From contig NZ_PGCL01000001.1 in NCBI RefSeq assembly GCF_004297185.1, forward strand, positions 310,001 to 374,000: a stretch of 64,000 nucleotides of DNA. The letters run 5' to 3'. The position numbers and the translations under genes were made by a program. This document shows positions 25,675 through 39,498 of this stretch, piece by piece. A model generated the notes under the pieces. That model had not been told where the DNA came from. It made no database searches and worked only from the letters and a program-made list of their open reading frames with translations. The DNA comes from Methanofollis fontis (lineage in GTDB: Archaea; Halobacteriota; Methanomicrobia; Methanomicrobiales; Methanofollaceae). The stretch's first letter is position 1, and the number at the start of each line of letters is the position of its first letter.

Positions 25675-27270
25675 ATGCATCGAACGACCATACCTGGAGT
25701 GGTTCTGATCCTCCTCATGCTCGCCACCGCACCCGCATGGGCGGCGCCGACAGACGAGATCGGCTACGCCGCCGGAGCAGGACCGCTGACTTATGCCGCC
25801 ACGGCAGGAACGCCGGGGCTCAATGCCGATGATAATATAACCGTCATCTGGTCCGGCACCGTGGAGATCGACCCGGAGGGCACTTTCGCACTCGTCCCGA
25901 TCAATACCGGAACACCGATTGAACTCGACCGCATCACCCCGATCGGGGCGCTCGATGCCGCATCGGAACCGGGTGACTTCACCTATGAGGTCTGGGAAGC
26001 GGACTGGGGCATCCTGGTTGAGAGTGTCAACAACATCACGGTCCAAGTGACCGATAACGACGAAACCTACATCTGGTGGTTCCATGACACCACGGACCCC
26101 TATGTCACCAACAACGCCACATTCAAATCCCTCGCCGATGGGGAACGGATTGAACTGATCTACGCACCCCTCCGGGACACCTATGAAGAGATCGTCGCCG
26201 GGACGGAGTACCTCATCGACATGACGGTCCGCTTCACCAATGAGACGAAGGCGGACTTCAGAGCAGAACCCACGAACGGCACAGCGCCACTCACCGTCCA
26301 GTTCACCGACCTATCCACCGTCGAGAACATCACCGCATGGGCATGGGACTTCGGTGTCGAGAATGCCACATCCGACGAGCAGAACCCGACCTACACCTAT
26401 GAGATGCCCGGCGTCTACACCGTCAGCCTCACCATCACCGATGAGGCGAACGTCACCTACACCGAGGTGAAGGCCGACTACATCAACGTCACCGAACCGA
26501 TCGGGCCAGGGGCGGACTTCAGCGCCGACGTCACCGCGGGAGAGGCGCCACTCACCGTGAACTTCACCGACCTATCCACCGTCGAGAACATTACCGCATG
26601 GTTCTGGGACTTCGGAAACGGATTCATGTCCACCATGAAAGACCCGCTCTTCACCTACCACACTCCGGGCGTCTATAACGTCTCCCTCACCGTCACCGAC
26701 GACCAGGACATGAAATGGACGACCACACAGGAGGGCTTCATCAACGTAACAGCACCCTTCACGCCTGAAGCGGACTTCAGCGCCGATGTCACCAACGGCA
26801 CCGCACCCCTCACCGTAAACTTCACCGACCTATCCACCGTCGAGAACATCACCGCATGGGCATGGGACTTCGGTGTCGAGAACGCCACATCCGAAGAGCA
26901 GAACCCAACCTACATCTATGAGATGCCCGGCACCTACACTGTCGGCCTGACGGTCACCGACGACACCGGCACGACCTACGTCGTGACAAAACCGGACTAC
27001 ATCACCGTCCTCGAGGAAGAGCAGAAAGCCAATTTCACAGCAAATGCCACAGCAGGCACAGCCCCCCTGGCCGTCCAGTTCACCGACCAATCCACTGTCG
27101 CAGAGATCACCTCCTGGTTCTGGGAGTTCGGTGACGGCTCCACCTCGGAAGAGCAGAACCCGGTCTACGTCTACACCGCAAACGGCACCTATGACGTCAC
27201 ACTCACCATCAATCGAGAGCAGAGCACCTACTACTGGCACGTCAAATACAACTACATCCACGTCGGCTGA
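25675..27270 (+). CDS. Secreted PKD-repeat surface protein (four PKD domains)
   Basis: A 531-residue exported protein. Residues 1-23 are a signal peptide (cleavage after PAWA). Residues 24-190 form one globular domain whose pattern (PIGALDAAS, YEVWEADWG, IWWFHDT, ADGERIELIYAP) recalls the DUF4430/transcobalamin-like fold; that is my inference. Then come four PKD domains, each with APLTVQFTDLS-like strands, W-DFG(V/N) and a Y-PG-YTVSLTV end, about 85 residues per unit. There is no C-terminal membrane helix or sorting tail, so it is either released or held by other surface proteins. Function is probably adhesion or surface structure. It is a tandem paralogue of the next gene, with a shared leader. 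Confidence 0.88.
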   Translation: MHRTTIPGVVLILLMLATAPAWAAPTDEIGYAAGAGPLTYAATAGTPGLNADDNITVIWSGTVEIDPEGTFALVPINTGTPIELDRITPIGALDAASEPGDFTYEVWEADWGILVESVNNITVQVTDNDETYIWWFHDTTDPYVTNNATFKSLADGERIELIYAPLRDTYEEIVAGTEYLIDMTVRFTNETKADFRAEPTNGTAPLTVQFTDLSTVENITAWAWDFGVENATSDEQNPTYTYEMPGVYTVSLTITDEANVTYTEVKADYINVTEPIGPGADFSADVTAGEAPLTVNFTDLSTVENITAWFWDFGNGFMSTMKDPLFTYHTPGVYNVSLTVTDDQDMKWTTTQEGFINVTAPFTPEADFSADVTNGTAPLTVNFTDLSTVENITAWAWDFGVENATSEEQNPTYIYEMPGTYTVGLTVTDDTGTTYVVTKPDYITVLEEEQKANFTANATAGTAPLAVQFTDQSTVAEITSWFWEFGDGSTSEEQNPVYVYTANGTYDVTLTINREQSTYYWHVKYNYIHVG

Positions 27271-27572
27271 AGGTCGACCGCTCCCCCTTCCATCAAGCCC
27301 CCTCTCCTGTGTTCGGCCCTACCAGGGCGGGGGTCGCCCCATGGCGGAAAAACTCTCCGCATTTGCCATTCAGAATGATGACACATCCGCGCCATTATCA
27401 CCAGAAACAGACGGATCCGCGTTTGAATCCGGAGATTTCCGGGCCATCGAAATAGTCCATGAAATCGGCCTTTTGACCGAGTGGAGCGATCGGGCAAAAC
27501 CCAAATACAACACATTCCCCGACTATACTCTGAAATATACCGCAATCGGTCCGGCGAATTCCGATTATGCAA
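27271..27572. other. Gene-free stretch between the PKD genes
   Basis: About 300 bases behind the first PKD gene. An open frame here has no supportable start or family and I do not call it. Terminator structure is not obvious. Confidence 0.5.
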
Positions 27573-27857
27573 ATATTATTATATCTTATCGACAATGCTC
27601 TCCCAGAAATCACCGGGATTGCCACGTAACACGCAGAGGCGATCTGCGATGATCCGCCAAAAACCCGTTTCAGGGGCGGTTCGGATGCACCCGCCGACAC
27701 AGCAGAGCAGAATTGAGCATGATACCGCATGGCGGCACACACCGCCGGGCGACACCCAACACAGGCGACCACCATACACTCCACTCCCGGGCAAACACTC
27801 CTGCCGTCCCGTGATTTCAGTTTGAAACCATGAAAACCACGAGAAGGTGATCAAAAA
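27573..27857 (+). promoter_or_regulatory. Promoter and long leader of the second PKD gene
   Basis: A core ATATTATTATATCTTATCGACA (about 27573-27594) matches the one before the first PKD gene, followed by AAATCACCGGGATTGCC. The leader is about 110 bases longer here because of an insertion, then returns to the shared CCCGGGCAAAC, CCGTCCCGTGATTTCAG and GAGAAGGTGATC segments directly before ATG. Confidence 0.6.
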
Positions 27858-30227
27858 ATGCATCGAACTATGATACCGGGAGTGGTCCTGATCCTCCTCA
27901 TGATCGTCGCCGCACCCGCATGGGCGGCGCCGACAGACGAGATCGGCGCCACCGGGACAGAACTGCTGACCTACGCTGCTGCGGCAGGAACATCGCTGCC
28001 GAATGCCGCCGACAACGCCACTGTCATCTGGTCAGGCACCGTTGAGATCGATCCGGAAGGAACTTTCATCATCGTCCCGCTCAACACCGGAACGCCGATT
28101 TCACTCGACCGCAACACCCCGCTCGGGGCGCTCGACGCCGCATCACAACTGGATACCTTTGTCTACGAGGTCTGGGAGGCGGACTGGGGCATCTGGGTCG
28201 AACGCATCAACGACATCCCCGTTATGATAGACGAAAATGGCGATCTGTATCTCTGGTGGTTCCACGCCGCCGGATATATCACCAACGAAGCCACCTTCAA
28301 ATCCCTCGGTAACGGCGAACGACTCCAGCTCATCTATGCACCCGACCGCGACAGTTATGAACAGATCCTGGCGGAGAAGAAATACATCATCGACATGGTC
28401 GTCCACTTCACCAATGAGACAGAAGCGGACTTCACCGCCGATGTCACAACAGGGGAGGCGCCGCTCACCGTCCAGTTCACCGACACCAGCACCGTCGAAA
28501 ACATCGCCGCATGGATGTGGGACTTCGGCGTCGAGAATGCAACATCCGACGAGCAGAACCCCACCTACACCTATGAGATGCCCGGCACCTACACCGTTTC
28601 CCTCACCGTCACCGATGAGGCGAACGTCACCTACACCGAGATGAAGACCGACTACATCAACGTCACCGAGATGATACCGGGGGCAGACTTCAGCGCCGAT
28701 GTCACCGAAGGGGAGGCACCTCTCGCCGTCCAGTTCACCGACACCAGCACCGTCGAGAACATCACAGAATGGATGTGGGACTTCGGTGTTGAGAATGCAA
28801 CATCCGACGAGCAGAACCCCACCTACATCTATGAGATGCCCGGCGTCTACACCGTTTCCCTCACCGTCACCGATGAGGCGAACGTCACCTACACCGAGAT
28901 GAAGACCGACTACATCAACGTCACCGAGATGATACCGGGGGCAGACTTCAGCGCCGATGTCACCGAAGGGGAGGCACCTCTCGCCGTCCAGTTCACCGAC
29001 ACCAGCACCGTCGAGAACATCACAGAATGGATGTGGGACTTCGGCGTCGAGAATGCAACATCCGAAGAGCAGAACCCGGCCTACACCTATGAGATGCCCG
29101 GCACCTACACCGTTTCCCTCACCGTCACCGATGAGGCGAACGTCACCTACACCGAAATGAAGACCGACTACATCAACGTCACCGAACCGATCGGACCCGA
29201 AGCGGACTTCACCGCCGACGTCACCGCAGGGGAGGCGCCCCTCACCGTCCAGTTCACCGACACCAGCACCGTCGAGAACATCACCGCATGGTGGTGGGAC
29301 TTCGGGAACGGATACATGTCCACCATGAAAGACCCGCTCTTCACCTACCACACACCGGGCGTCTATAACGTCTCCCTCTCCATCAGAGACGACCAGGACA
29401 TGAAATGGACGACTGTAAAGGAGGGCTTCATCAACGTCACGGGACCGTTCGAGCCTGAAGCAGACTTCGCCGCCGATGTCACCGCAGGGGAGGCGCCGCT
29501 CACCGTGAACTTCACCGATCAATCGACCGTCGAGAACATCACAGAATGGATGTGGGACTTCGGCGTCGAGAATGCCACATCCGAAGAGCAGAACCCCACC
29601 TACACCTATGAGATGCCCGGGATCTACACCGTCTCCCTCACCGTCACCAATGAGGCGAACCTCACCTACACCGAGGTGAAGATTGACTACATCAACGTAA
29701 CAGCGCCCTTCACGCCTGAAGCAGACTTCAGCGCCGATGTCACCGAAGGGGAGGCGCCCCTCACCGTTCAGTTCAGCGACCTCTCCACCGTCGAGAATAT
29801 CACAGAATGGATGTGGGACTTCGGCGTTGAGAATGCCACATCCGACGAGCAGAACCCAACCTATACCTATGAGATGCCCGGCGTCTACACCGTTTCCCTC
29901 ACCGTCACCGATGAGGCGAACCTCACCTACACCGAGGTGAAGGAAGACTACATCAACGTCACCGAAATCATGCCGATGGGGGCGGACTTCAGCGCCGATG
30001 TCACCAATGGCACAGCACCCCTCACCGTGAACTTCACCGACCTATCCACCGTCGAGAACATCACAGAATGGATGTGGGACTTCGGCGTCGAGAATGCCAC
30101 ATCCGAAGAGCAGAACCCCACCTACACCTATGAGATGCCCGGTGTCTACACCGTCTCCCTCACCGTCAGGGACATGGCAAATGTCACCTACACCGAGATG
30201 AAGGACGATTACATCACCGTGACCTGA
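27858..30227 (+). CDS. Secreted PKD-repeat surface protein (seven PKD domains)
   Basis: A 789-residue paralogue of the preceding gene with the same signal peptide (ends PAWA), the same 165-residue N-terminal domain and seven PKD domains instead of four. Each repeat carries ADFxADVTxGEAPLxVQFTD and WMWDFGVENATSxEQNP. The protein ends exactly at the end of the last PKD unit with no anchor. Repeats 2 and 3 are almost identical at DNA level, showing recent expansion. Many NVT/NIT/NAT sites suggest N-glycosylation. The role is probably cell-surface adhesion or matrix. Confidence 0.88.
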   Translation: MHRTMIPGVVLILLMIVAAPAWAAPTDEIGATGTELLTYAAAAGTSLPNAADNATVIWSGTVEIDPEGTFIIVPLNTGTPISLDRNTPLGALDAASQLDTFVYEVWEADWGIWVERINDIPVMIDENGDLYLWWFHAAGYITNEATFKSLGNGERLQLIYAPDRDSYEQILAEKKYIIDMVVHFTNETEADFTADVTTGEAPLTVQFTDTSTVENIAAWMWDFGVENATSDEQNPTYTYEMPGTYTVSLTVTDEANVTYTEMKTDYINVTEMIPGADFSADVTEGEAPLAVQFTDTSTVENITEWMWDFGVENATSDEQNPTYIYEMPGVYTVSLTVTDEANVTYTEMKTDYINVTEMIPGADFSADVTEGEAPLAVQFTDTSTVENITEWMWDFGVENATSEEQNPAYTYEMPGTYTVSLTVTDEANVTYTEMKTDYINVTEPIGPEADFTADVTAGEAPLTVQFTDTSTVENITAWWWDFGNGYMSTMKDPLFTYHTPGVYNVSLSIRDDQDMKWTTVKEGFINVTGPFEPEADFAADVTAGEAPLTVNFTDQSTVENITEWMWDFGVENATSEEQNPTYTYEMPGIYTVSLTVTNEANLTYTEVKIDYINVTAPFTPEADFSADVTEGEAPLTVQFSDLSTVENITEWMWDFGVENATSDEQNPTYTYEMPGVYTVSLTVTDEANLTYTEVKEDYINVTEIMPMGADFSADVTNGTAPLTVNFTDLSTVENITEWMWDFGVENATSEEQNPTYTYEMPGVYTVSLTVRDMANVTYTEMKDDYITVT
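28671..29186 (+). repeat. Tandem 258-bp duplication inside the PKD gene
   Basis: Two consecutive 258-bp units (28671-28928 and 28929-29186), each one 86-residue PKD domain beginning MIPGADFSADV, are nearly identical. Both stay in frame, so the protein just gains one domain. This indicates recent unequal recombination. Confidence 0.85.
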
Positions 30228-30422
30228 ACAGACCCGGCAACCCCCCCCTTTATCCAACGTTCACTCTCCTTTCAGAGGCGCATTTCTTCTCCCTCACCGG
30301 CAAGGAAGGCGAGATCCGGAGGTGCAAACCTACTTATTCCAGGAAGGGCCTGCCACTATCATGCAGATCTGGGGAAAAGAGTGTATCAGGAGCCATGGTG
30401 CGAAAAAATCGGTGAAAATAGT

Positions 30423-31436
30423 ATGATCCCGGAAATTTCCGAAAATAAACCGTCCCGCTTCCTCATCCCGCTTGCGGCCTTCGTCATCGTGATTGGCGGC
30501 ATGCACGCTGCCGCATCCCTGCTCAACCCCATCCTCCTCTCGGTGTTCATCGCCATCGTCGCCATGCCCCTGCTGGACTGGCTCATCGAACGCAGCGTCC
30601 CATCGCAGGCGGCCGTTTTAATCGTCATGGCAGGAATCATCGGGATCTGCCTGTTCCTGATCTGGGTCCTCTCGGTCTCCCTCTCCCAGGCAGTGGAGGC
30701 CTTGCCCGCCTATGAGGAGATGTTGCGGGTGCAGGTGGAGGCGCTGAAGTCCATGCTGGAGGGACTCGGCATCTCGGCGGAGGGCGGCGACCTGCCCGGG
30801 ATCGTCTCCACCCATTCCATCCTCCCCTCCATCGTCACCCTGATCTCCGGACTCATCCAATCGATCATGGACCTGCTGCTGGTGCTCGTCATCACCAACT
30901 TCCTGCTCTTCGAATTCGCTACCCTCTCAGGCACAGAAAGACCAGTGCCGCTACGGACCTATACCGAACATCTGATCACCTACATCATCGTGCGGATCAA
31001 GACCAACATCCTCACCGGGATCGGTGCCGGCATCTTCCTGGCCGTGATCGGGGTGGACTTCGCGGTGCTCTGGGGCGCCCTGATCGCCATCCTCAGTTTC
31101 ATCCCCTATGCCGGCCTCTGGATCGCCGCCCTCCCGGCAATCGGGCTGGCATGGCTGGAAGGAGGATTGACCGGCGCCGTCCTCGCCCTGATCGGCATCG
31201 TGGGCAGCAACTTTATCGCCGAGGAACTGATCTTCCCGGCCATGGCCGGCGAAGACCTGCAGATCTCGCCGGTCGTGGTGATCATCGCCCTCTTCTTCTG
31301 GACCTGGGTGCTCGGCGTGCCGGGCCTGTTCCTGGCCATCCCCCTCACCATCGCCGGAAAAATGCTGCTCGAATCCTATGAAGAGACCCGATGGATCACA
31401 CGTCTGATGGAGGGTGCGTCCGCCTTCTCCCGGTGA
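30423..31436 (+). CDS. AI-2E family transporter
   Basis: A 337-residue membrane protein of the AI-2E (UPF0118/PerM) family: two N-terminal helices, a helix-hairpin with a soluble amphipathic domain (about residues 90-150), and a helical C-terminal part with the hallmark GVDFAVLWGALIAILSFIPYAG and GVPGLFLAIPL. Members export AI-2-like signals or act as Na+/H+ antiporters; the archaeal substrate is not known. ATG 30423 has GGTGA seven bases upstream. The next gene downstream is an unrelated small membrane protein with its own promoter. Confidence 0.9.
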   Translation: MIPEISENKPSRFLIPLAAFVIVIGGMHAAASLLNPILLSVFIAIVAMPLLDWLIERSVPSQAAVLIVMAGIIGICLFLIWVLSVSLSQAVEALPAYEEMLRVQVEALKSMLEGLGISAEGGDLPGIVSTHSILPSIVTLISGLIQSIMDLLLVLVITNFLLFEFATLSGTERPVPLRTYTEHLITYIIVRIKTNILTGIGAGIFLAVIGVDFAVLWGALIAILSFIPYAGLWIAALPAIGLAWLEGGLTGAVLALIGIVGSNFIAEELIFPAMAGEDLQISPVVVIIALFFWTWVLGVPGLFLAIPLTIAGKMLLESYEETRWITRLMEGASAFSR

Positions 31437-31465
31437 ACGGAAGAGCAGAAGAGCAGACGCCGGCG

Positions 31466-31482
31466 AAATATATATATCTGGC
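31466..31482 (+). promoter_or_regulatory. TATA box of the HdeD-like gene
   Basis: GCGAAATATATATATC is a near-consensus BRE/TATA element centred about 37 bases before ATG 31511, giving a leader of about ten bases. Confidence 0.6.
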
Positions 31483-31510
31483 CGGCGGCCCCTTTCCGCA
31501 TGGTGTGTCC

Positions 31511-32062
31511 ATGACAGATGAAACGCTTCCCGGCACTGTGCCGGGTGGAGTGGAGACCGACCTCTTCCCCTGGTGGCTGGTAGTGCTGCAGGGGTTCGTC
31601 ACCCTCATGCTGGGGCTGTTCCTGCTGATGCAGCCGGGGATGACGCTGCTCGTGCTTGTCACCTTCATCGGGATCTACTGGTTCATCACCGGGATCTTTG
31701 CAATCGTCAGCCTGGTGCTGGATAGAACGGACCTGGTCTGGAAGGCGATCATCGCCGTGCTGGGGATCATCGCCGGCATCCTGGTGACGACCTACCCGCT
31801 CTACAGCACCGTGCTCATCGCCACCTTCTTCGCCATCCTGATCGCGGTCTGGGGGATCCTCATCGGGATCACAAGCCTGGCACGGGGTGTGAGCGGCGGA
31901 GGATGTACCGCCGCCGTCCTCGGCATTCTCAGCATCATCATCGGCATCATCCTGCTCGCACGCCCCCTCCTGACGGCGGCGTCCCTGGTGCTCATCCTGG
32001 GGGTGTTCGCCGTCATCGGGGGAGTGATGGCGATCGTTGCCGGAATCAGAATGCGCAGGTAA
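31511..32062 (+). CDS. HdeD/DUF308-family membrane protein
   Basis: A 183-residue protein with six hydrophobic segments arranged as three similar hairpins, as in HdeD (DUF308) proteins. Typical stretches are WLVVLQGFVTLMLGLFLLMQPG, WFITGIFAIVSLVLDR and LGILSIIIGIILLARPL. HdeD in enterobacteria is linked to acid resistance; no function is proven in archaea. The start was set at ATG 31511, since the earlier ATG at 31500 is out of frame and gives a four-residue peptide. Confidence 0.85.
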   Translation: MTDETLPGTVPGGVETDLFPWWLVVLQGFVTLMLGLFLLMQPGMTLLVLVTFIGIYWFITGIFAIVSLVLDRTDLVWKAIIAVLGIIAGILVTTYPLYSTVLIATFFAILIAVWGILIGITSLARGVSGGGCTAAVLGILSIIIGIILLARPLLTAASLVLILGVFAVIGGVMAIVAGIRMRR

Positions 32063-32146: not shown

Positions 32147-33325
32147 GTGGGGCCGCCGGCCTTCCACCTGATGGCAAAACCGACCGGGGCCAGGTGCAAC
32201 CTCAGGTGCACCTACTGTTTTTACCTCCAGAAGGCCGGGCTCTACCCGGACGGCACCTTCAGGATGAGCGATGCGGTGCTGGAATCCTATATCAGACAGG
32301 TGATCGACGCCCACCGCTCACCCCTGGTGACGGTGGCATGGCAGGGGGGCGAACCCACCCTGATGGGGCTGGACTTCTTCGAGCGGGCCATGGAGATCCA
32401 GCAGCGCTACCGGCGGGGCGGGACGGCGATCCAGAACACCATCCAGACCAACGGCACCCTGCTGGACGATTCATGGGCCGGATTCTTTCGCAGACACCAG
32501 TTCCTGGTGGGGATCAGCATCGACGGCCCCGAAGAGGTGCATGACGCCTTCCGCGTTGACCGGGCCGGACGACCCACCTTTGGGCGGGCGATGACGGGGC
32601 TGTCCCTGCTCAGGAAACACGGCGTGGAGCACAACATCCTCACCTGCATCCATGCCGCCAACCAGGAGCGTCCCCTGGAGGTCTACCGCTTCCTGCGGGA
32701 CGAGGCCGGGGGCCGCCATATCCAGTTCATTCCGGTGGTGGAGCGGAGAGGGACCGCCGGCGTGAGCGTGCATTCCGTTGGCCCCGAACCTTTCGGCAGG
32801 TTTCTGAACACGATCTTCGACGAATGGGTGCGGCACGATGTCGGGAGCGTGTTCGTGCAGAACTTCGAGGCCGCGCTGGCCGCATGGGCCGGGATACCCC
32901 CCGGCACCTGTGTCTCCGCCCCAGTCTGCGGCACCGCACCGGTGCTGGAGCACAATGGTGACGTCTATGTCTGCGACCATTATGCAGACCCGGCCCACCG
33001 CCTTGGAAACATCATGCAGACCCCCCTCTCCAACCTGATGGCCTCGCCGATGAGGGCGGCCTTCGGCAGGAGCAAACTCACCGGACTCCCCGATTATTGC
33101 CGGCGCTGCCGTGTACGCTTTGCCTGCAACGGCGGGTGCCCGAAGGACCGTTTTCTCACCTGCCCGGACGGCGAAGCCGGACTGAACTATCTCTGCAGAG
33201 GGTACCGGATTTTTTTCACCCATATCGACGCCCCCATGCGGTTCATGGCCGAAAATCTGAGACGAAACGGCGATCCTTCGGATGTGATGGCCTGGATGCG
33301 AGCGAAAAACGCCAGAATCCGATGA
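32147..33325 (+). CDS. Anaerobic sulfatase-maturating enzyme (radical SAM/SPASM)
   Basis: A 392-residue radical SAM enzyme that oxidises the active-site Cys or Ser of a sulfatase to formylglycine. The [4Fe-4S]-SAM site is CNLRCTYC (about residues 17-24) in the context AKPTGARCNLRCTYCFY that defines this family, followed by WQGGEPTLMG. The C-terminal SPASM-type region has further Cys in VYVCDHY, CRRCRVRFAC and NGGCPKD for two auxiliary clusters. GTG 32147 is the only usable start in frame. The arylsulfatase gene 91 bases downstream is the obvious client, and its CxPxR motif matches the Cys type. Confidence 0.93.
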   Translation: MGPPAFHLMAKPTGARCNLRCTYCFYLQKAGLYPDGTFRMSDAVLESYIRQVIDAHRSPLVTVAWQGGEPTLMGLDFFERAMEIQQRYRRGGTAIQNTIQTNGTLLDDSWAGFFRRHQFLVGISIDGPEEVHDAFRVDRAGRPTFGRAMTGLSLLRKHGVEHNILTCIHAANQERPLEVYRFLRDEAGGRHIQFIPVVERRGTAGVSVHSVGPEPFGRFLNTIFDEWVRHDVGSVFVQNFEAALAAWAGIPPGTCVSAPVCGTAPVLEHNGDVYVCDHYADPAHRLGNIMQTPLSNLMASPMRAAFGRSKLTGLPDYCRRCRVRFACNGGCPKDRFLTCPDGEAGLNYLCRGYRIFFTHIDAPMRFMAENLRRNGDPSDVMAWMRAKNARIR

Positions 33326-33416
33326 CGAACCATCCGGCGCCGGTACGGCGAAAAACTACAAATATCGCCATCCCCATTCACGAACAACCCCGCCCCCCCT
33401 CAGGAGGAATGCCGCC

Positions 33417-35774
33417 ATGACAAAAAGAGTGAGGGAGTACCGACCCGGGAGCGCCTTTCCCGGGGTGATCGGGCGGACCGTGGATGAATCGACACCCGCC
33501 TGGCCCGCTCCGTTGCGAGCGAAACAGGGAGCGCCGGACGTCATCGTGATCGTGCTGGACGACACCGGCTTTGGCCACCTGGGATGCTATGGGTCGCCGA
33601 TCCGGACACCGAACCTCGACCGCCTCGCCGCGGAGGGTCTGCTCTACACCAACATGCACACCACCGCCCTCTGCTCGCCGACAAGGTCCTGCATCCTCAC
33701 CGGGCGCAACCACCACTCCAACAACATGGCCGGGATCACCGAGATCTCCACCGGATACCCGGGGTATACCGGGGTCATCCCGTTTGAAAACGGTTTTCTC
33801 CCGGAGATGCTGCTCCGCCACGGCTATGCCACCTTCGCCATCGGCAAGTGGCACCTGACGCCAGCCGAGCAGACGAGCGCCGCTGGCCCCTACGACCGGT
33901 GGCCCCTCGGGCGCGGTTTCGAACGATTTTATGGATTTCTGGGCGGCGACACCCACCAGTACTACCCGGAACTGGTCTACGACAATCACCAGGTCGACCC
34001 ACCGAAGACCCCGGAGGAGGGCTATACCCTGAACGAGGACCTCGCCGACACGGCGATCCGCTTCATCGCCGACACTGTCCAGGTGGCCCCGGACAGACCC
34101 TTCTTCCTCTACTACTGCACCGGGGCCATGCACGCCCCCCACCATGTGCCTGAGGAATGGAGCGACCGTTACCGGGGGGCCTTCGACGACGGCTGGGAGG
34201 CCTACCGGGAGCAGGTGTTCCGGCGGCAGGTGGACCTCGGCATCGTGCCTGAGGGGACCGAGATGGCCGCGCACGACCCCGACGTCCCCCGCTGGGAGGA
34301 CCTCCCCGCCGAAGAGCGGCGGTTGTATGCACGGATGATGGAGGTGTTCGCCGGTTTCCTGGAGCAGACCGACCACCATATCGGGCGGATCATCGACTAC
34401 CTGGAGACGATCGGGAGGCTGGAGAACGCCATCATCATGGTGATCTCGGACAATGGGGCCAGCGCCGAGGGCGGGCCCACCGGATCGGTCAACGAGAACA
34501 AGTTCTTCAACTATGTGCCCGAGTCCCTCGAGGAAAACCTGGCGGCACTGGACGACCTGGGCGGCCCGAAATACTTCAACCATTACCCCTGGGGCTGGAC
34601 CTGGGCGGGCGACACCCCCTTCCGCCGCTGGAAACGGGAGACCTACCGCGGCGGGATCAGCGACCCCTTCATCGTCCACTGGCCCGCAGGCATCCGGACA
34701 TCCGGGGAGATCAGGCGGCATTACGCCCATGCGATCGACATCCTCCCGACGCTGCTGGAGGCGCTCGGGATCGAGCCCCCGGCGTCGATCCGGGGGGTCG
34801 CCCAGTCGCCCATCGAGGGGACGAGTTTTGCCGGCACCTTCGACAACGCCGGGGCGCCGGAACGGCGGACCACCCAGTACTATGAGATGATCGGTCACCG
34901 CTCGATCTACCACGACGGCTGGAAGGCGGTCTGCCCCTGGCCCGGTCCGTCCTTCACAGAAGGAGGGGCCTTCGGGCAGCCGATCAGCGCCGAAACCCTC
35001 CGTGACCTGGATGCACGGGGCTGGGAACTCTACAACCTGAGGGAAGACTGGGCAGAGTCAAGGAATGTGGCTGCCGACCACCCGGAGGTGCTGCAGGAGC
35101 TGATCACCCTCTGGTACATCGAGGCCGGAAAATACAGCGTGCTCCCGCTCGACGGCCGCGGGGTCGAGCGTTTCGCCGAACCCCGCCCGCAGATCACCCC
35201 GGACAGGAAACGCTACGTATATTTCCCGGGCACCCAGGGCGTCCCTGAGAACACCGCCGTCCGGGTGCTCAACCGCTCGCACGTGATCGCGGCGATCACC
35301 GACATCCCTCCGGGCGGGGCGGAGGGGGTGCTCCTCTGCCACGGCGGCAACACCGGCGGCTATACTCTGTTTGTGCAGGAGAACAGGCTCCACTATATCC
35401 ATAACTATGTGGGCAGCCGCGTTTTCCACCTGGTCTCCGGCGAAGAGGTGCCGGAAGGGCGGGTGGTGCTCAGCTACCAGTTCGAGAAGAACGGCGAGCC
35501 AGAGATTAAAAAGGGGAAAGGAGCACCCGGCACAGCCCGCCTATACTTCAACGAACAGATGGTGGCCGAGATGGACCTCCCCCTGACCACCCCCATCCTG
35601 TTCGGGCTCGGCGGCAGCCTGACCTGCGGGCGGAGCGGGGGATCCCCGATCACCCCCGCCTACACGCCGCCGTTCCCCTTCACCGGCACCCTCCACCGGG
35701 TGGTGGTGGACGTCAGCGGGGAGCGGATCGAGGACCACGAAGCCGAGATCAGGCTGGCCCTGGCCCGGCAGTGA
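33417..35774 (+). CDS. Arylsulfatase, Cys (formylglycine) type
   Basis: A 785-residue sulfatase of the alkaline-phosphatase fold. The metal-binding DDTGFGHLGCYGS (about 48-60) and the formylglycine motif CSPTR (86-90) are intact; GKWHLTP and a later ISDNGAS supply the other active-site residues. There is no signal peptide, so it should work in the cytoplasm, like Pseudomonas AtsA, which it also resembles in length plus a 200-residue C-terminal beta domain. ATG 33417 follows AGGAGGAATG. With its maturase directly upstream it can scavenge sulfate esters; substrate unknown. Confidence 0.93.
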   Translation: MTKRVREYRPGSAFPGVIGRTVDESTPAWPAPLRAKQGAPDVIVIVLDDTGFGHLGCYGSPIRTPNLDRLAAEGLLYTNMHTTALCSPTRSCILTGRNHHSNNMAGITEISTGYPGYTGVIPFENGFLPEMLLRHGYATFAIGKWHLTPAEQTSAAGPYDRWPLGRGFERFYGFLGGDTHQYYPELVYDNHQVDPPKTPEEGYTLNEDLADTAIRFIADTVQVAPDRPFFLYYCTGAMHAPHHVPEEWSDRYRGAFDDGWEAYREQVFRRQVDLGIVPEGTEMAAHDPDVPRWEDLPAEERRLYARMMEVFAGFLEQTDHHIGRIIDYLETIGRLENAIIMVISDNGASAEGGPTGSVNENKFFNYVPESLEENLAALDDLGGPKYFNHYPWGWTWAGDTPFRRWKRETYRGGISDPFIVHWPAGIRTSGEIRRHYAHAIDILPTLLEALGIEPPASIRGVAQSPIEGTSFAGTFDNAGAPERRTTQYYEMIGHRSIYHDGWKAVCPWPGPSFTEGGAFGQPISAETLRDLDARGWELYNLREDWAESRNVAADHPEVLQELITLWYIEAGKYSVLPLDGRGVERFAEPRPQITPDRKRYVYFPGTQGVPENTAVRVLNRSHVIAAITDIPPGGAEGVLLCHGGNTGGYTLFVQENRLHYIHNYVGSRVFHLVSGEEVPEGRVVLSYQFEKNGEPEIKKGKGAPGTARLYFNEQMVAEMDLPLTTPILFGLGGSLTCGRSGGSPITPAYTPPFPFTGTLHRVVVDVSGERIEDHEAEIRLALARQ

Positions 35775-35783
35775 CCCCCTCCT

Positions 35784-36236
35784 TTATTCGGGGAGGCCGA
35801 ACGCCGCTTTCGTGCCCGGCATCAGGCAATAGACCAGGACGATGGCGTTGATCAGGATGGCCGGCGCCATCGCCTGCCAGGACGAGGCCCCGATGATCGA
35901 GAAAACGGCCATGATCAGGTTCAGGATGGAGACGATCATCACAAACATCCATCCCTGCGGGTTGAGGTTCCAGAGCATCTGAAACACCCAGAGGTAGATG
36001 AATGCGAGGATTCCCCACATGATCGCACCATAGAGGCTGAAGGTGAAGAAGGCCACCTCGCCGATGATGATCGGGATCATATCCAGCATCTGGAAGGTGA
36101 AGATGATCGCCTGGATCGCTGCAAGAAGGGCAAGGATTGCCAGTATTGTAATACCAATCGGTCGCTGGTCGGTCATACGATATTCCCGGACGGCCGGATA
36201 CGGCCACTCCACGTTGATCTGGGAGCATTCGAGCAT
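35784..36236 (-). CDS. Four-helix membrane protein of unknown function
   Basis: Four hydrophobic segments, beginning with RPIGITILAILALLAAIQAII, an opening often seen in small archaeal membrane proteins of unknown role. Two starts are possible: ATG 36236 (150 residues) with AGGAAGG six bases upstream and a TATA-like GGTTAAATGCGG at about 36276-36287, or ATG 36176 (130 residues) directly before RPIGIT. I list the longer form because of its ribosome site. The gene converges on the sulfatase gene, with nine bases between the stops. Confidence 0.7.
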   Translation of the reverse strand: MLECSQINVEWPYPAVREYRMTDQRPIGITILAILALLAAIQAIIFTFQMLDMIPIIIGEVAFFTFSLYGAIMWGILAFIYLWVFQMLWNLNPQGWMFVMIVSILNLIMAVFSIIGASSWQAMAPAILINAIVLVYCLMPGTKAAFGLPE

Positions 36237-36423
36237 ATTAACCTTCCTAATTCCGTTTTCGGAGTCATGAAGCCGCATTTAACCGCAGGATGCCACCCGA
36301 TGCAATCGGCGGGTGCCGGATATCTCGGTCCTCCTCATCCTCCCCTGCCTGAAGGGACAGAGGACAGATCCCGGGGCACATCCCACCGTTCCGGCCACCA
36401 TCCTCGGGACAACAGTCCCTGAA

Positions 36424-36532
36424 AAAGTATATTATGGAGCCGATGATATGGGCACTCAGCAGAGACGGGGATGGACGAAATGCCGCATGGTTCATGCGGC
36501 GAAATTGACATTTTACATTCAAAGGAGAGGAG
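36424..36532 (+). promoter_or_regulatory. Promoter and structured leader of the ion-channel gene
   Basis: A TATA-like AAGTATATTATGG lies at 36424-36436. The predicted leader of about 75 bases contains a perfect hairpin: GCCGCATG (36482-36489), loop GTT, CATGCGGC (36493-36500). A strong ribosome site AAGGAGAGGAG touches the ATG. No T-run follows the hairpin, so it is not a terminator; it may be an operator or an RNA-level control element. Confidence 0.55.
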
Positions 36533-38431
36533 ATGATACGTTTCTGGCGCGGCAAACACCGGCCCCGGACGACGGAGCGGCAGGCGGCATGCCTCATCTT
36601 CATCCTCCTCCTGCTCTCAGTCTCCATCCCCGCCGCCGCCCAGATTCAGGAGAGCGGCAGCGTCCAGGTGCTGACCGAACGGCTGGAGACAGGGGAGACG
36701 GCATTCTATGATCTCGCCGGACTGAGGGAGGGGCAGGACATCTATATCCACGCCACCGGCACCTCAGGCAACCTCGACCCGTTCATCGCCATCGCCCACC
36801 CCACGATCGACCGTGAACAGATGGCCGCCGATTTCGTGGCAGGGGTCGAAGAAGCCGTCAGCGGGGGCGGCGATCCCCTCGGTGTGATACCGCGGATCGC
36901 AGACCGTTATTTCCTTGCATGGGACGACGACGGCGGGGCGGGCTATGCCGCCGCCCTCCACTTCAGGGTTCCTGCAGACGGCGACTACGTCCTGGATGTG
37001 ATGGCGTCGCCGGCCAGAGAGGAGACCTTCGGCGACTACCGCCTTACGATCGGTATCGATGCCCCCGGCGTGCTGGACGGCACGGCCGGACCGACCGGGA
37101 GCACCATCGCCGTGCTGGACCGGGAGGCATCCAGACTGGATATGGCCGTCGGGGAGGTGGCCGGCACCCTCACACCGGAAAAAACCGGCACCTATCATAT
37201 CCTCGGCCCGGTGAGGCAGGGGGACATCCTCTACGCCCGTGTCGAACGCACCTCCGGCGACCTGATCCCGGTGATCGTGCTGCAGGACAACGGAGAAAAA
37301 ATCCTGGCGGCCGGAATTGCCACCGACGGGGGAGGACGGGCCTCGTTCACCTACACCTTCACCGAAGCGACTGAGAACAGCCGTATCGAAGTCTCCGGTC
37401 AGGAGAGAGGGGGCAACGCCACTGCGGGTGCCTACCGCCTGCTGGTCGGGATCAATGACCCCTCGGTGCTCGGCGGCGCGGCCGAACCGCATGGCGGCGC
37501 CGTGCTGATCGCCCCCCTGCTCGTGGCGGTGGGGGTAGAGATGGACCAGATCACGGTCGTCGACCAGCAGGCGGAAAACTTCGGAGTGGTGGCCAATCTC
37601 TGGATGCAGTGGAACGACCCGGCCCTCGCCTACAGCCCGGACACCTGCGACTGCCGGATCAAGATCTACCGGGAGATCGATGACTTCGTGGCGGCAGAAG
37701 GCACGCGCTGGCCAGAGTTCACCCTCTACAACCAGCAGGGCAACCGCTGGACCCAGAACAGTCTGATCTCGATCCAGCCGGACGGAACGGCCACCTATTA
37801 CGAGCGCTTCTGGGTGATCCTCCAGGCGCCGGACTTCGACTTCAAGAATTACCCCTTCGACACACAGGACTTCTACATCAGGGTCGACTCGATCTACCCC
37901 GAAGAAGCGGTCTTCTATACCCCCTGGGAGGAAAAGACCGCCGTCGGGACCCAGCTCGGCGAGGAGGAGTGGTACATCACCGGGAGCGATTCGGGGATCG
38001 GCAGCATCATGATCACTGGCATCAATTCCCGCTACTCCTTCCATTTCACGGCACAGAGGCACCTCACCTACTATATCCTGAGGATTCTGGTGCCCATCCT
38101 GCTGATCATCGTGCTCAGCTGGATCCCCTTCCTGCTCAGGGACTACGGCAAGAGGGCGGACATCGCCGGGGCAAACCTGCTCCTCTTCATCGCCTTCAAC
38201 TTCACCATTGCAAACGATCTGCCGCGCCTGGGCTACCTTACCTTCCTGGACTCGATCCTGGTGACCACCTTCATGATCAGCGGGGCGACCGTCGCCTATA
38301 ACCTCTACCTGAAATGGCTGGCGACCGAGCGGCAGAAGGAGATCGCCGAACGGATCGACCGTATCATCGTCTGGCTCTACCCCCTCGGCTATATTCTGGC
38401 GATCGCCCTCATCCTGATCTTCTTCCCCTGA
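36533..38431 (+). CDS. Pentameric ligand-gated ion channel (Cys-loop receptor superfamily) with extra N-terminal domains
   Basis: A 632-residue membrane protein. Signal peptide about 1-36. Residues 40-325 hold two beta-rich repeats of the PPC/jelly-roll type (each with GTYHILGP- or DGDYVLDV-like strands ending YRLxxGI). Residues 335-490 match the ligand-binding beta sandwich: NLWMQWNDPALAY and the Pro-loop YPFDTQDFYIRV. Four membrane helices follow: M1 RILVPILLIIVLSW with the conserved Pro, M2 ANLLLFIAFNFTIAN, then the M2-M3 link LPRLGYLTFLD, M3 and a C-terminal M4. No Cys pair forms the eukaryotic loop, as in other prokaryotic channels. The layout resembles bacterial DeCLIC, whose N-terminal domains sense Ca2+. 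The ligand is unknown. Confidence 0.9.
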   Translation: MIRFWRGKHRPRTTERQAACLIFILLLLSVSIPAAAQIQESGSVQVLTERLETGETAFYDLAGLREGQDIYIHATGTSGNLDPFIAIAHPTIDREQMAADFVAGVEEAVSGGGDPLGVIPRIADRYFLAWDDDGGAGYAAALHFRVPADGDYVLDVMASPAREETFGDYRLTIGIDAPGVLDGTAGPTGSTIAVLDREASRLDMAVGEVAGTLTPEKTGTYHILGPVRQGDILYARVERTSGDLIPVIVLQDNGEKILAAGIATDGGGRASFTYTFTEATENSRIEVSGQERGGNATAGAYRLLVGINDPSVLGGAAEPHGGAVLIAPLLVAVGVEMDQITVVDQQAENFGVVANLWMQWNDPALAYSPDTCDCRIKIYREIDDFVAAEGTRWPEFTLYNQQGNRWTQNSLISIQPDGTATYYERFWVILQAPDFDFKNYPFDTQDFYIRVDSIYPEEAVFYTPWEEKTAVGTQLGEEEWYITGSDSGIGSIMITGINSRYSFHFTAQRHLTYYILRILVPILLIIVLSWIPFLLRDYGKRADIAGANLLLFIAFNFTIANDLPRLGYLTFLDSILVTTFMISGATVAYNLYLKWLATERQKEIAERIDRIIVWLYPLGYILAIALILIFFP

Positions 38432-38481: not shown

Positions 38482-39498
38482 ATGCACTGCCCGGTCTGCG
38501 GAGACGACCATATCCAACCCGCCGGCGACCTGCTCGCCACCCTCCCGGCGGTCTTCACCCCCTGCTCACGCTGCCGCCCCGTCCGCCTGGGCACAAATGC
38601 CCCGCCGCCGGAGGAATATGCACCCGCCCCCCCCTGCACCTGCGGGCGACGGTTCATCGACGCAGTCTTCGCCGACATCCACCGGATCCTCACCGGGGCG
38701 GGGATCTTCGACGGCACCGAAGCCCTCAGGACCGTCGGCACCCCGGTCACCGACCCCGGTTTCGTGATGACCGCCCCCCCCTTCCTCCCCCCACGCTCCC
38801 TGGTGCTGCTCAGCCCCCACCCCGACCGAAGAACCGCTGAACGGATCGTCGCAGAGGTCCCGGAGGTGCGCGGGGTGGTGCGCACCACCCCCGCCCTCCC
38901 GGGTATCGACCCCGACGGCGGGACCGCTGCCCACGAACTGCTTGCCGGGTGCGACGTCCAGGCCAACGTCTTCCCGACCGCATCCGGCGATATCGTGATC
39001 TACAAGGAACTCTCGAAACTCCATATCGAGTTCCCGCGCCCGCATAACCCCAAGATCCGGGCCGTCGAACGGGAGATCCGGCGCACAAACCCCAGGACCT
39101 TCATCGACGCCTGTTGCGGCGCCGGCACCCTCGGTCTGGCGGCGGCCCTGGCCGGCACCCCGGAGGTGATCTTCTGCGATCTCTGGGGGCCGGCAGTCCG
39201 CTGGACGGCCATCAACATCGCCGTCAACCGCGATTCCCTGCTCGTCGACGAGGTCACCCTCCCCCATGACGGGATCGAGGCGGTGCGCCGCGACCGCCCC
39301 GTCACCGTCGCCCGCGCGGACGGCGACCAGCACTTCCGGGTCTGCCAGGGCGATTATGCCGATCTTCCCCCACTCCTCGCCCGCCCGGAGCGGAGCATCG
39401 CCGCCCTGGACATCTTCGGAAAAGAGGAGCGTTCTGCCTGCAATGCCGCCCTGGAGAGATGGCGGGGTGCCGGCGGAGGCAATGCATTTATCCCCTGA
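38482..39498 (+). CDS. Zn-ribbon protein with methyltransferase-like C-terminal domain
   Basis: A 338-residue protein. The N-terminus has three Cys pairs (CPVCGDD at 3-6, CSRC at 28-31, CTCGRR around 52), probably a zinc ribbon. A middle region follows, and then a class I methyltransferase-like core with FIDACCGAGTLGLAAALAG (about 209-227) as motif I and VIFCDLWGPAVRWTAINIAVN after it. There is no clear NPPY/DPPY-type catalytic motif, so I cannot tell whether it methylates RNA, protein or nothing. A TATA-like GCAGGTTTATTC about 30 bases before the ATG predicts a leaderless mRNA. The ion-channel gene ends 50 bases upstream. Confidence 0.75.
   Translation: MHCPVCGDDHIQPAGDLLATLPAVFTPCSRCRPVRLGTNAPPPEEYAPAPPCTCGRRFIDAVFADIHRILTGAGIFDGTEALRTVGTPVTDPGFVMTAPPFLPPRSLVLLSPHPDRRTAERIVAEVPEVRGVVRTTPALPGIDPDGGTAAHELLAGCDVQANVFPTASGDIVIYKELSKLHIEFPRPHNPKIRAVEREIRRTNPRTFIDACCGAGTLGLAAALAGTPEVIFCDLWGPAVRWTAINIAVNRDSLLVDEVTLPHDGIEAVRRDRPVTVARADGDQHFRVCQGDYADLPPLLARPERSIAALDIFGKEERSACNAALERWRGAGGGNAFIP

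Follow-up and report, generated by a model that had tools for sequence, protein, structure and literature searches.

The locus at positions 36533 to 38431 of the window (the whole stretch of 64,000 nucleotides that was analyzed) raises the question of what kind of ion channel is encoded there by an archaeon, and which signal and physiological role might be assigned to it.

Gene, domain architecture, and predicted fold

The reading from ATG to stop, 632 codons on the plus strand, was confirmed. The frame is also open in 33 other full-length homologues that share 39 to 61% identity, and the ORF is therefore not due to chance. A genome search revealed one gene of this type in the window's organism. 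The gene and its parts are as follows.

36533..38431, plus strand: whole gene of a DeCLIC-type pentameric ligand-gated ion channel (pLGIC), 632 aa (ORF translation, Pfam, PDB sequence search, alignment)
36521..36532, plus strand: AAAGGAGAGGAG, purine-rich ribosome-binding stretch directly 5' of the ATG (sequence)
About 100 bases 5' of the gene, plus strand: AAAAAGTATATTATGG, AT-rich TATA-like stretch, candidate promoter element
36533..36640, plus strand: putative signal peptide, residues 1-36 (hydrophobic segment 18-36; low-pLDDT boundary 31-40)
36650..37102, plus strand: NTD1 lobe, residues 40-190 (alignment to DeCLIC NTD1; model)
37103..37492, plus strand: NTD2 lobe, residues 191-320 (alignment to DeCLIC NTD2; model)
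37493..38053, plus strand: ligand-binding (extracellular) domain (ECD), residues 321-507, Pro-loop YPFD at 440-443 (Pfam, PDB match, alignment)
38054..38428, plus strand: transmembrane domain (TMD), M1-M4, residues 508-632 (PDB match, alignment, model)

In a phmmer search of the PDB, DeCLIC was retrieved as a full-length match (E = 2.8e-128, 432.6 bits, query residues 21-629 aligned with 13-633); sTeLIC (E = 1.3e-80) and GLIC (about 1e-25) matched the final 305 residues of the query. Identity to DeCLIC amounts to 37% in NTD1, 25% in NTD2, and 46% in both the extracellular and the membrane domain, and identity to sTeLIC to 39% in the extracellular and 53% in the membrane domain. Of the two Pfam families against which the earlier note on this DNA had proposed to check the protein, Neur_chan_LBD (PF02931) scored above its cutoff (41.7 bits versus 26, E = 1.1e-10), whereas Neur_chan_memb (PF02932) was by itself subthreshold (13.3 bits versus 28.1). 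The alignments to DeCLIC and sTeLIC run through the whole membrane domain, up to residue 629-631. The landmarks of the Cys-loop superfamily that had been claimed are indeed present, namely, YPFD (440-443), Pro 521 in M1, the M2-M3 link DLPRLGYLTF, and four predicted transmembrane helices (511-528, 538-562, 571-598, and 602-630). The disulfide cysteine pair of animal Cys-loop receptors is absent from the Pro-loop sequence.

For the analysis of conservation we used 35 full-length sequences, of which 34 were from archaeal and Chloroflexota genomes and one was DeCLIC. The sole ECD cysteines, C372 and C374, form a CxC motif (37646-37654) that is kept in 32 of these 35 DeCLIC-type channels, including DeCLIC, and is missing from sTeLIC and from three members of the window's genus.

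A monomer model built with 25 aligned homologues (pLDDT 83, pTM 0.70) shows two beta lobes, NTD1 helices at 94-126, a beta-sandwich, and four membrane helices. Its strands at 43-175 and 193-307 form beta-rich lobes N-terminal to the ligand-binding domain and bear out the two beta-rich repeats described earlier. The structural comparison that had been suggested also returned the pLGIC fold: DeCLIC entries occupied ranks 1 to 20 in Foldseek (best match E = 7e-61, about 604 columns), followed by sTeLIC and GLIC, and VIA-align gave DeCLIC as the top match over residues 75..632, with Z values up to 26.6 over 497 residues among the pLGIC rows. Full-length sequence and structure alignment to DeCLIC thus show that the ECD is preceded by a pair of jelly-roll lobes, NTD1 and NTD2. 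The earlier note had called this region comparable to that of DeCLIC; the likeness holds but was understated, since the same NTD1 and NTD2 align over their full length. No Pfam match to Cache or MCP-N at E <= 1 was obtained ahead of the ligand-binding domain, where the protein aligns to the DeCLIC NTD. On the basis of its sequence, the protein is a pLGIC of the DeCLIC group, related to the neurotransmitter receptors of animals, and an archaeal member of that group.

Pore and putative calcium sites

The features mapped from DeCLIC, for which residues of four Ca2+ densities are named in PMC12664993, are listed below.

38141..38218, plus strand: pore helix M2, residues 537-562, with -4' D537, 2' D543, 9' L550, and 16' F557 (alignment)
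36776..36781, plus strand: putative Ca2+ site 1, first half, D82-P83 (DeCLIC D76-P77), invariant in the 35 homologues
36926..36931, plus strand: putative Ca2+ site 1/2, second half, D132-D133 (DeCLIC D123-D124), invariant in the 35 homologues
37574..37576, plus strand: putative Ca2+ site 3, E348 (DeCLIC E347) in the beta1-beta2 loop, E in 34/35
37952..37969, plus strand: putative Ca2+ sites 3/4, loop F QLGEEE 474-479 (DeCLIC Q476-E481) (alignment)

The M2 sequence is DYGKRADIAGANLLLFIAFNFTIANDLP. D537 (-4') and the 9' Leu are invariant, D543 (2') is D or E in all sequences, the 16' Phe is nearly invariant, and the M2-M3 link is invariant or nearly so among full-length homologues. DeCLIC has been classed as cation-selective from two acidic rings, which in the present analysis are equated with -4' and 2'. 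Residue 11' is Phe here and His in GLIC (PDB titles), and GLIC-type gating via that residue is thus unlikely. Two members of family f5 (g15; L010 and L049) have an odd M2 (ANLLLLLLFSFTVTSD in L010), in which the 13' Ala is replaced by Leu.

Every residue that PMC12664993 names for the four DeCLIC sites maps to an identical one in the channel. The resulting putative sites comprise D82, P83, D132, D133, and Y138 (site 1); D133, G135, and G137 (site 2); E348, P433, F435, and L475 (site 3); and Q474, G476, and E478 (site 4). D82, P83, D132, D133, G476, E477, and E479 do not vary across the 35 sequences, and position 478 is E or D in all of them. Ca2+-site residues rank among the most conserved of the entire extracellular part. 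Ten of the 151 NTD1 columns are invariant, and D82, P83, D132, and D133 account for four of them; the hypergeometric chance that all four site 1 residues fall in these columns is 1e-5. This family-wide invariance of site 1 was not found in the passages on DeCLIC that were consulted. The NTD1 calcium site is common to bacteria and archaea, and its retention across both argues that it matters. The earlier note had left both ligand and ion unspecified; the conserved cation-selectivity rings and DeCLIC Ca2+ sites narrow that choice.

Distribution and gene neighborhood

The rarity in archaea that had been implied was overstated. Tasneem et al. in 2004 (PMC549065) described Methanosarcina pLGICs fused to MCP-N and Cache domains, N-terminal sensor domains being noted for one archaeal channel, and Jaiteh et al. 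in 2016 (PMC4795631) added ten archaeal genera, reaching 11 in total, and concluded that such genes had been transferred laterally and lost. A sizable N-terminal region in an archaeal channel of this superfamily thus has precedent. Our search of the open-access literature yielded no report of archaeal DeCLIC-like channels in methanogens, of their invariant Ca2+ site, or of the neighbor set described below; of these, the gene context seems to be new.

In the window's order, Methanomicrobiales, 52 of 232 genomes contained a match. By hand count, 27 of these were of the long DeCLIC type and 25 of a distantly similar short form of about 340 to 370 aa, all in family f5; these short f5 pLGICs without an NTD (L017, L018, and L051-L053) constitute a separate archaeal type in the same order. 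In the phylum, the long type was present in 18 of 393 genomes, including family f10 outside the order and a Methanotrichaceae MAG. Several Chloroflexota MAGs also contain it at 40 to 42% identity; one Chloroflexota copy at 51% identity lies on a 4-kb contig and may be misbinned. The gene is patchy and is missing from some members of the window's genus. In genome G117 it is split (L069/L028) into overlapping frames that cover query residues 20-321 and 317-631, reflecting a frameshift or a sequencing error. Numerous genomes in this order of cultivable archaea carry the gene, and its neighbors suggest conditions that may be relevant to it.

In the tree, seven sequences of the window's genus form their own clade and the window copy is placed elsewhere with weak support. 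A single clade of all eight was not rejected by the AU test (p-AU 0.284), and horizontal transfer of the window copy is therefore not claimed. No relatives were found in viral contigs or in plasmids, so carriage on such elements is unsupported. The channel gene is followed by a methyltransferase-like gene and by genes for malate dehydrogenase, EF-1 beta, and a PLD-like protein, an order shared with the Methanoculleaceae loci L030, L062, L063, and L068, which indicates that the window copy is at an old shared position. In genus members G005 and G008 the channel is elsewhere in the genome and the methyltransferase gene is retained. The genes flanking the channel are as follows.

35784..36278, minus strand: small membrane protein of an unnamed family, divergent neighbor (likely start 36176, MTDQRP...)
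33417..35774, plus strand: sole sulfatase of the genome (PF00884; Pfam, genome search)
32147..33325, plus strand: anaerobic sulfatase maturase (TIGR03942; 475 bits, cutoff 349)
31391..32062, plus strand: DUF308/HdeD-like membrane protein (domain match)
30381..31436, plus strand: AI-2E family transporter (domain match)
38482..39498, plus strand: methyltransferase-like syntenic gene, marking the orthologous position shared with Methanoculleaceae

The first five all lie within about 6 kb upstream of the channel. Further upstream, at 25675-30227, two large PKD-repeat proteins of 531 and 789 aa adjoin each other; both are probably located at the surface. The sulfatase and its own anaerobic maturase (32147-35774) occur here in a methanogen, and L059 and L060 likewise have such a pair close to the channel.

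We analyzed genes within 10 kb of the channel in 18 channel-bearing genomes against a null of random placement, with lineages grouped by hand. Neighbor clusters that proved to be opposite-strand readings of genuine genes were disregarded. Under this null, which lacks general accessory-gene clustering, (i) a sulfatase was near the channel in 5 of the 18 genomes (0.27 expected; P = 6e-5 after collapsing to lineages), (ii) DUF1269 was present in 8 of 18 (P = 8e-5), (iii) of 8 genomes scored for DUF308, which had been picked partly after their neighbors had been seen, 5 had it (P = 1e-5), and (iv) AI-2E, in 6 genomes, exceeded chance only slightly once lineages were considered (P = 0.01). Proximity of AI-2E was discarded as a strong signal because of this lineage value and because it reflects one inherited arrangement in Methanoculleaceae. 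At the Chloroflexota loci the channel is flanked by DUF308 (L032), DUF1269 (L032, L037, and L038), and LURP-one (L037 and L038).

The small membrane protein has no match in Pfam or NCBIfam. In L038, a Chloroflexota MAG, a homologue with 55% identity is separated from the channel by about 6 kb, and elsewhere homologues of the small protein adjoin DUF1269 or sulfatase genes even where there is no channel. We therefore regard the channel as an exchangeable component of an envelope/stress-type gene cluster. In this family of about 130 aa, identity between methanogens and Chloroflexota is 54 to 59%, above that of the channel itself. The clustering may merely reflect a hotspot of accessory genes. 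This context among envelope/stress-type genes is the first hint of a possible role.

Proposed mechanism, alternatives, and known systems

We consider it likely, with some reserve, that the protein is an archaeal DeCLIC-group channel forming a cation-selective homopentamer that is shut by external Ca2+ and that probably serves as a sensor-effector of envelope or ionic stress. Pentamer, cation selectivity, and Ca2+ inhibition are proposed by analogy with DeCLIC, and the stress role is suggested by the neighbors alone. In the cytoplasmic membrane, five identical subunits would enclose a pore selective for cations, with the ligand-binding domain and both jelly-roll lobes exposed outside. With Ca2+ occupying site 1 in NTD1 and site 3, where the beta1-beta2 loop meets loop F across the subunit interface, lobes and interface would be locked and the pore held closed; once external Ca2+ is lost, possibly together with a second signal, they would loosen and let monovalent cations (Na+ or K+) pass. 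Against this reading stand the NTD2 match to DeCLIC, which is just 25% identical, and the different genomic position of the channel in other genus members. A gated cation leak in organisms living on small ion gradients would be a physiological puzzle. A further-reaching proposal, which we hold to be quite doubtful, is that methanogens and Chloroflexota share an exchangeable set of envelope-stress genes (sulfatase and maturase, DUF308/HdeD, DUF1269, LURP-one, AI-2E, and the unnamed small membrane protein) in which the channel is functionally integrated, turning Ca2+ loss at the surface into a cation current; if true, a prokaryotic pLGIC with an NTD would thereby gain its first physiological role.

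Another explanation, unlikely yet deserving attention, is that a small organic ligand or pH opens the channel, with the agonist at the intersubunit orthosteric site or in NTD2, and that Ca2+ is structural, stabilizing the fold of NTD1 as it does in accessory domains of the collagen-binding and subtilisin type. The membrane domain is nearer to sTeLIC than to DeCLIC (53% versus 46%), and sTeLIC is titled alkaline-pH-gated in the PDB and was also solved with 4-bromophenethylamine. Moreover, the NTD folds like Ca2+-binding accessory domains of secreted enzymes, and the DeCLIC authors are undecided as to whether interfacial Ca2+ is functional or structural. However, the strong conservation of the Ca2+-site residues and the Phe in place of the GLIC His at 11' argue against it.

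Much less probable is a chemotaxis-type sensor channel, as put forward for prokaryotic pLGICs in 2004: other prokaryotic members carry Cache/MCP-N and PBP fusions (PMC549065), but the channel has no Pfam match to Cache, MCP-N, or PBP, and no chemotaxis gene is among its recurring neighbors. A decayed or nonconducting relic retained as a surface protein would agree with the patchy distribution, the absence from some genus members, and the split copy in L028/G117. We regard it as the least probable of these readings, given a frame open in 34 of 34 genomic full-length rows used, the good ribosome-binding stretch, and the invariant or nearly invariant pore, M2-M3 link, and Ca2+ residues.

Among known systems, DeCLIC of the deltaproteobacterium Desulfofustis (PDB 6v4a, 6v4s, 7q3g, 9ev1, 9eva, and 9fth) is, according to PMC12664993, the only NTD-bearing channel so far partly characterized. 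Both the role of its Ca2+ site (functional or structural) and its open state are disputed. No electrophysiology of an archaeal DeCLIC-type member was found in the literature. The channel shares with DeCLIC the domain order NTD1-NTD2-ECD-TMD, the 9' Leu, the 16' Phe, both acidic rings, the Pro-loop, the ECD CxC motif, and the residues of Ca2+ sites 1-4; it differs in its archaeal rather than bacterial host, in 2' (Asp versus Glu) and 6' (Ala versus Gly), and in one NTD1 loop that is 8 residues shorter. sTeLIC (PDB 6fl9) resembles it in ECD and TMD, the loop F GEEEW, the 2' Asp ring, the 9' Leu, and the 16' Phe, whereas its chain has neither an NTD nor the CxC motif. GLIC has the same ECD and TMD fold, with about 26% identity by structure, but also lacks an NTD. 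The Methanosarcina pLGICs (Tasneem et al. 2004; PMC549065) are likewise archaeal with extra N-terminal domains, which by description are MCP-N and Cache fusions, in contrast to the DeCLIC jelly-roll lobes of the present channel.
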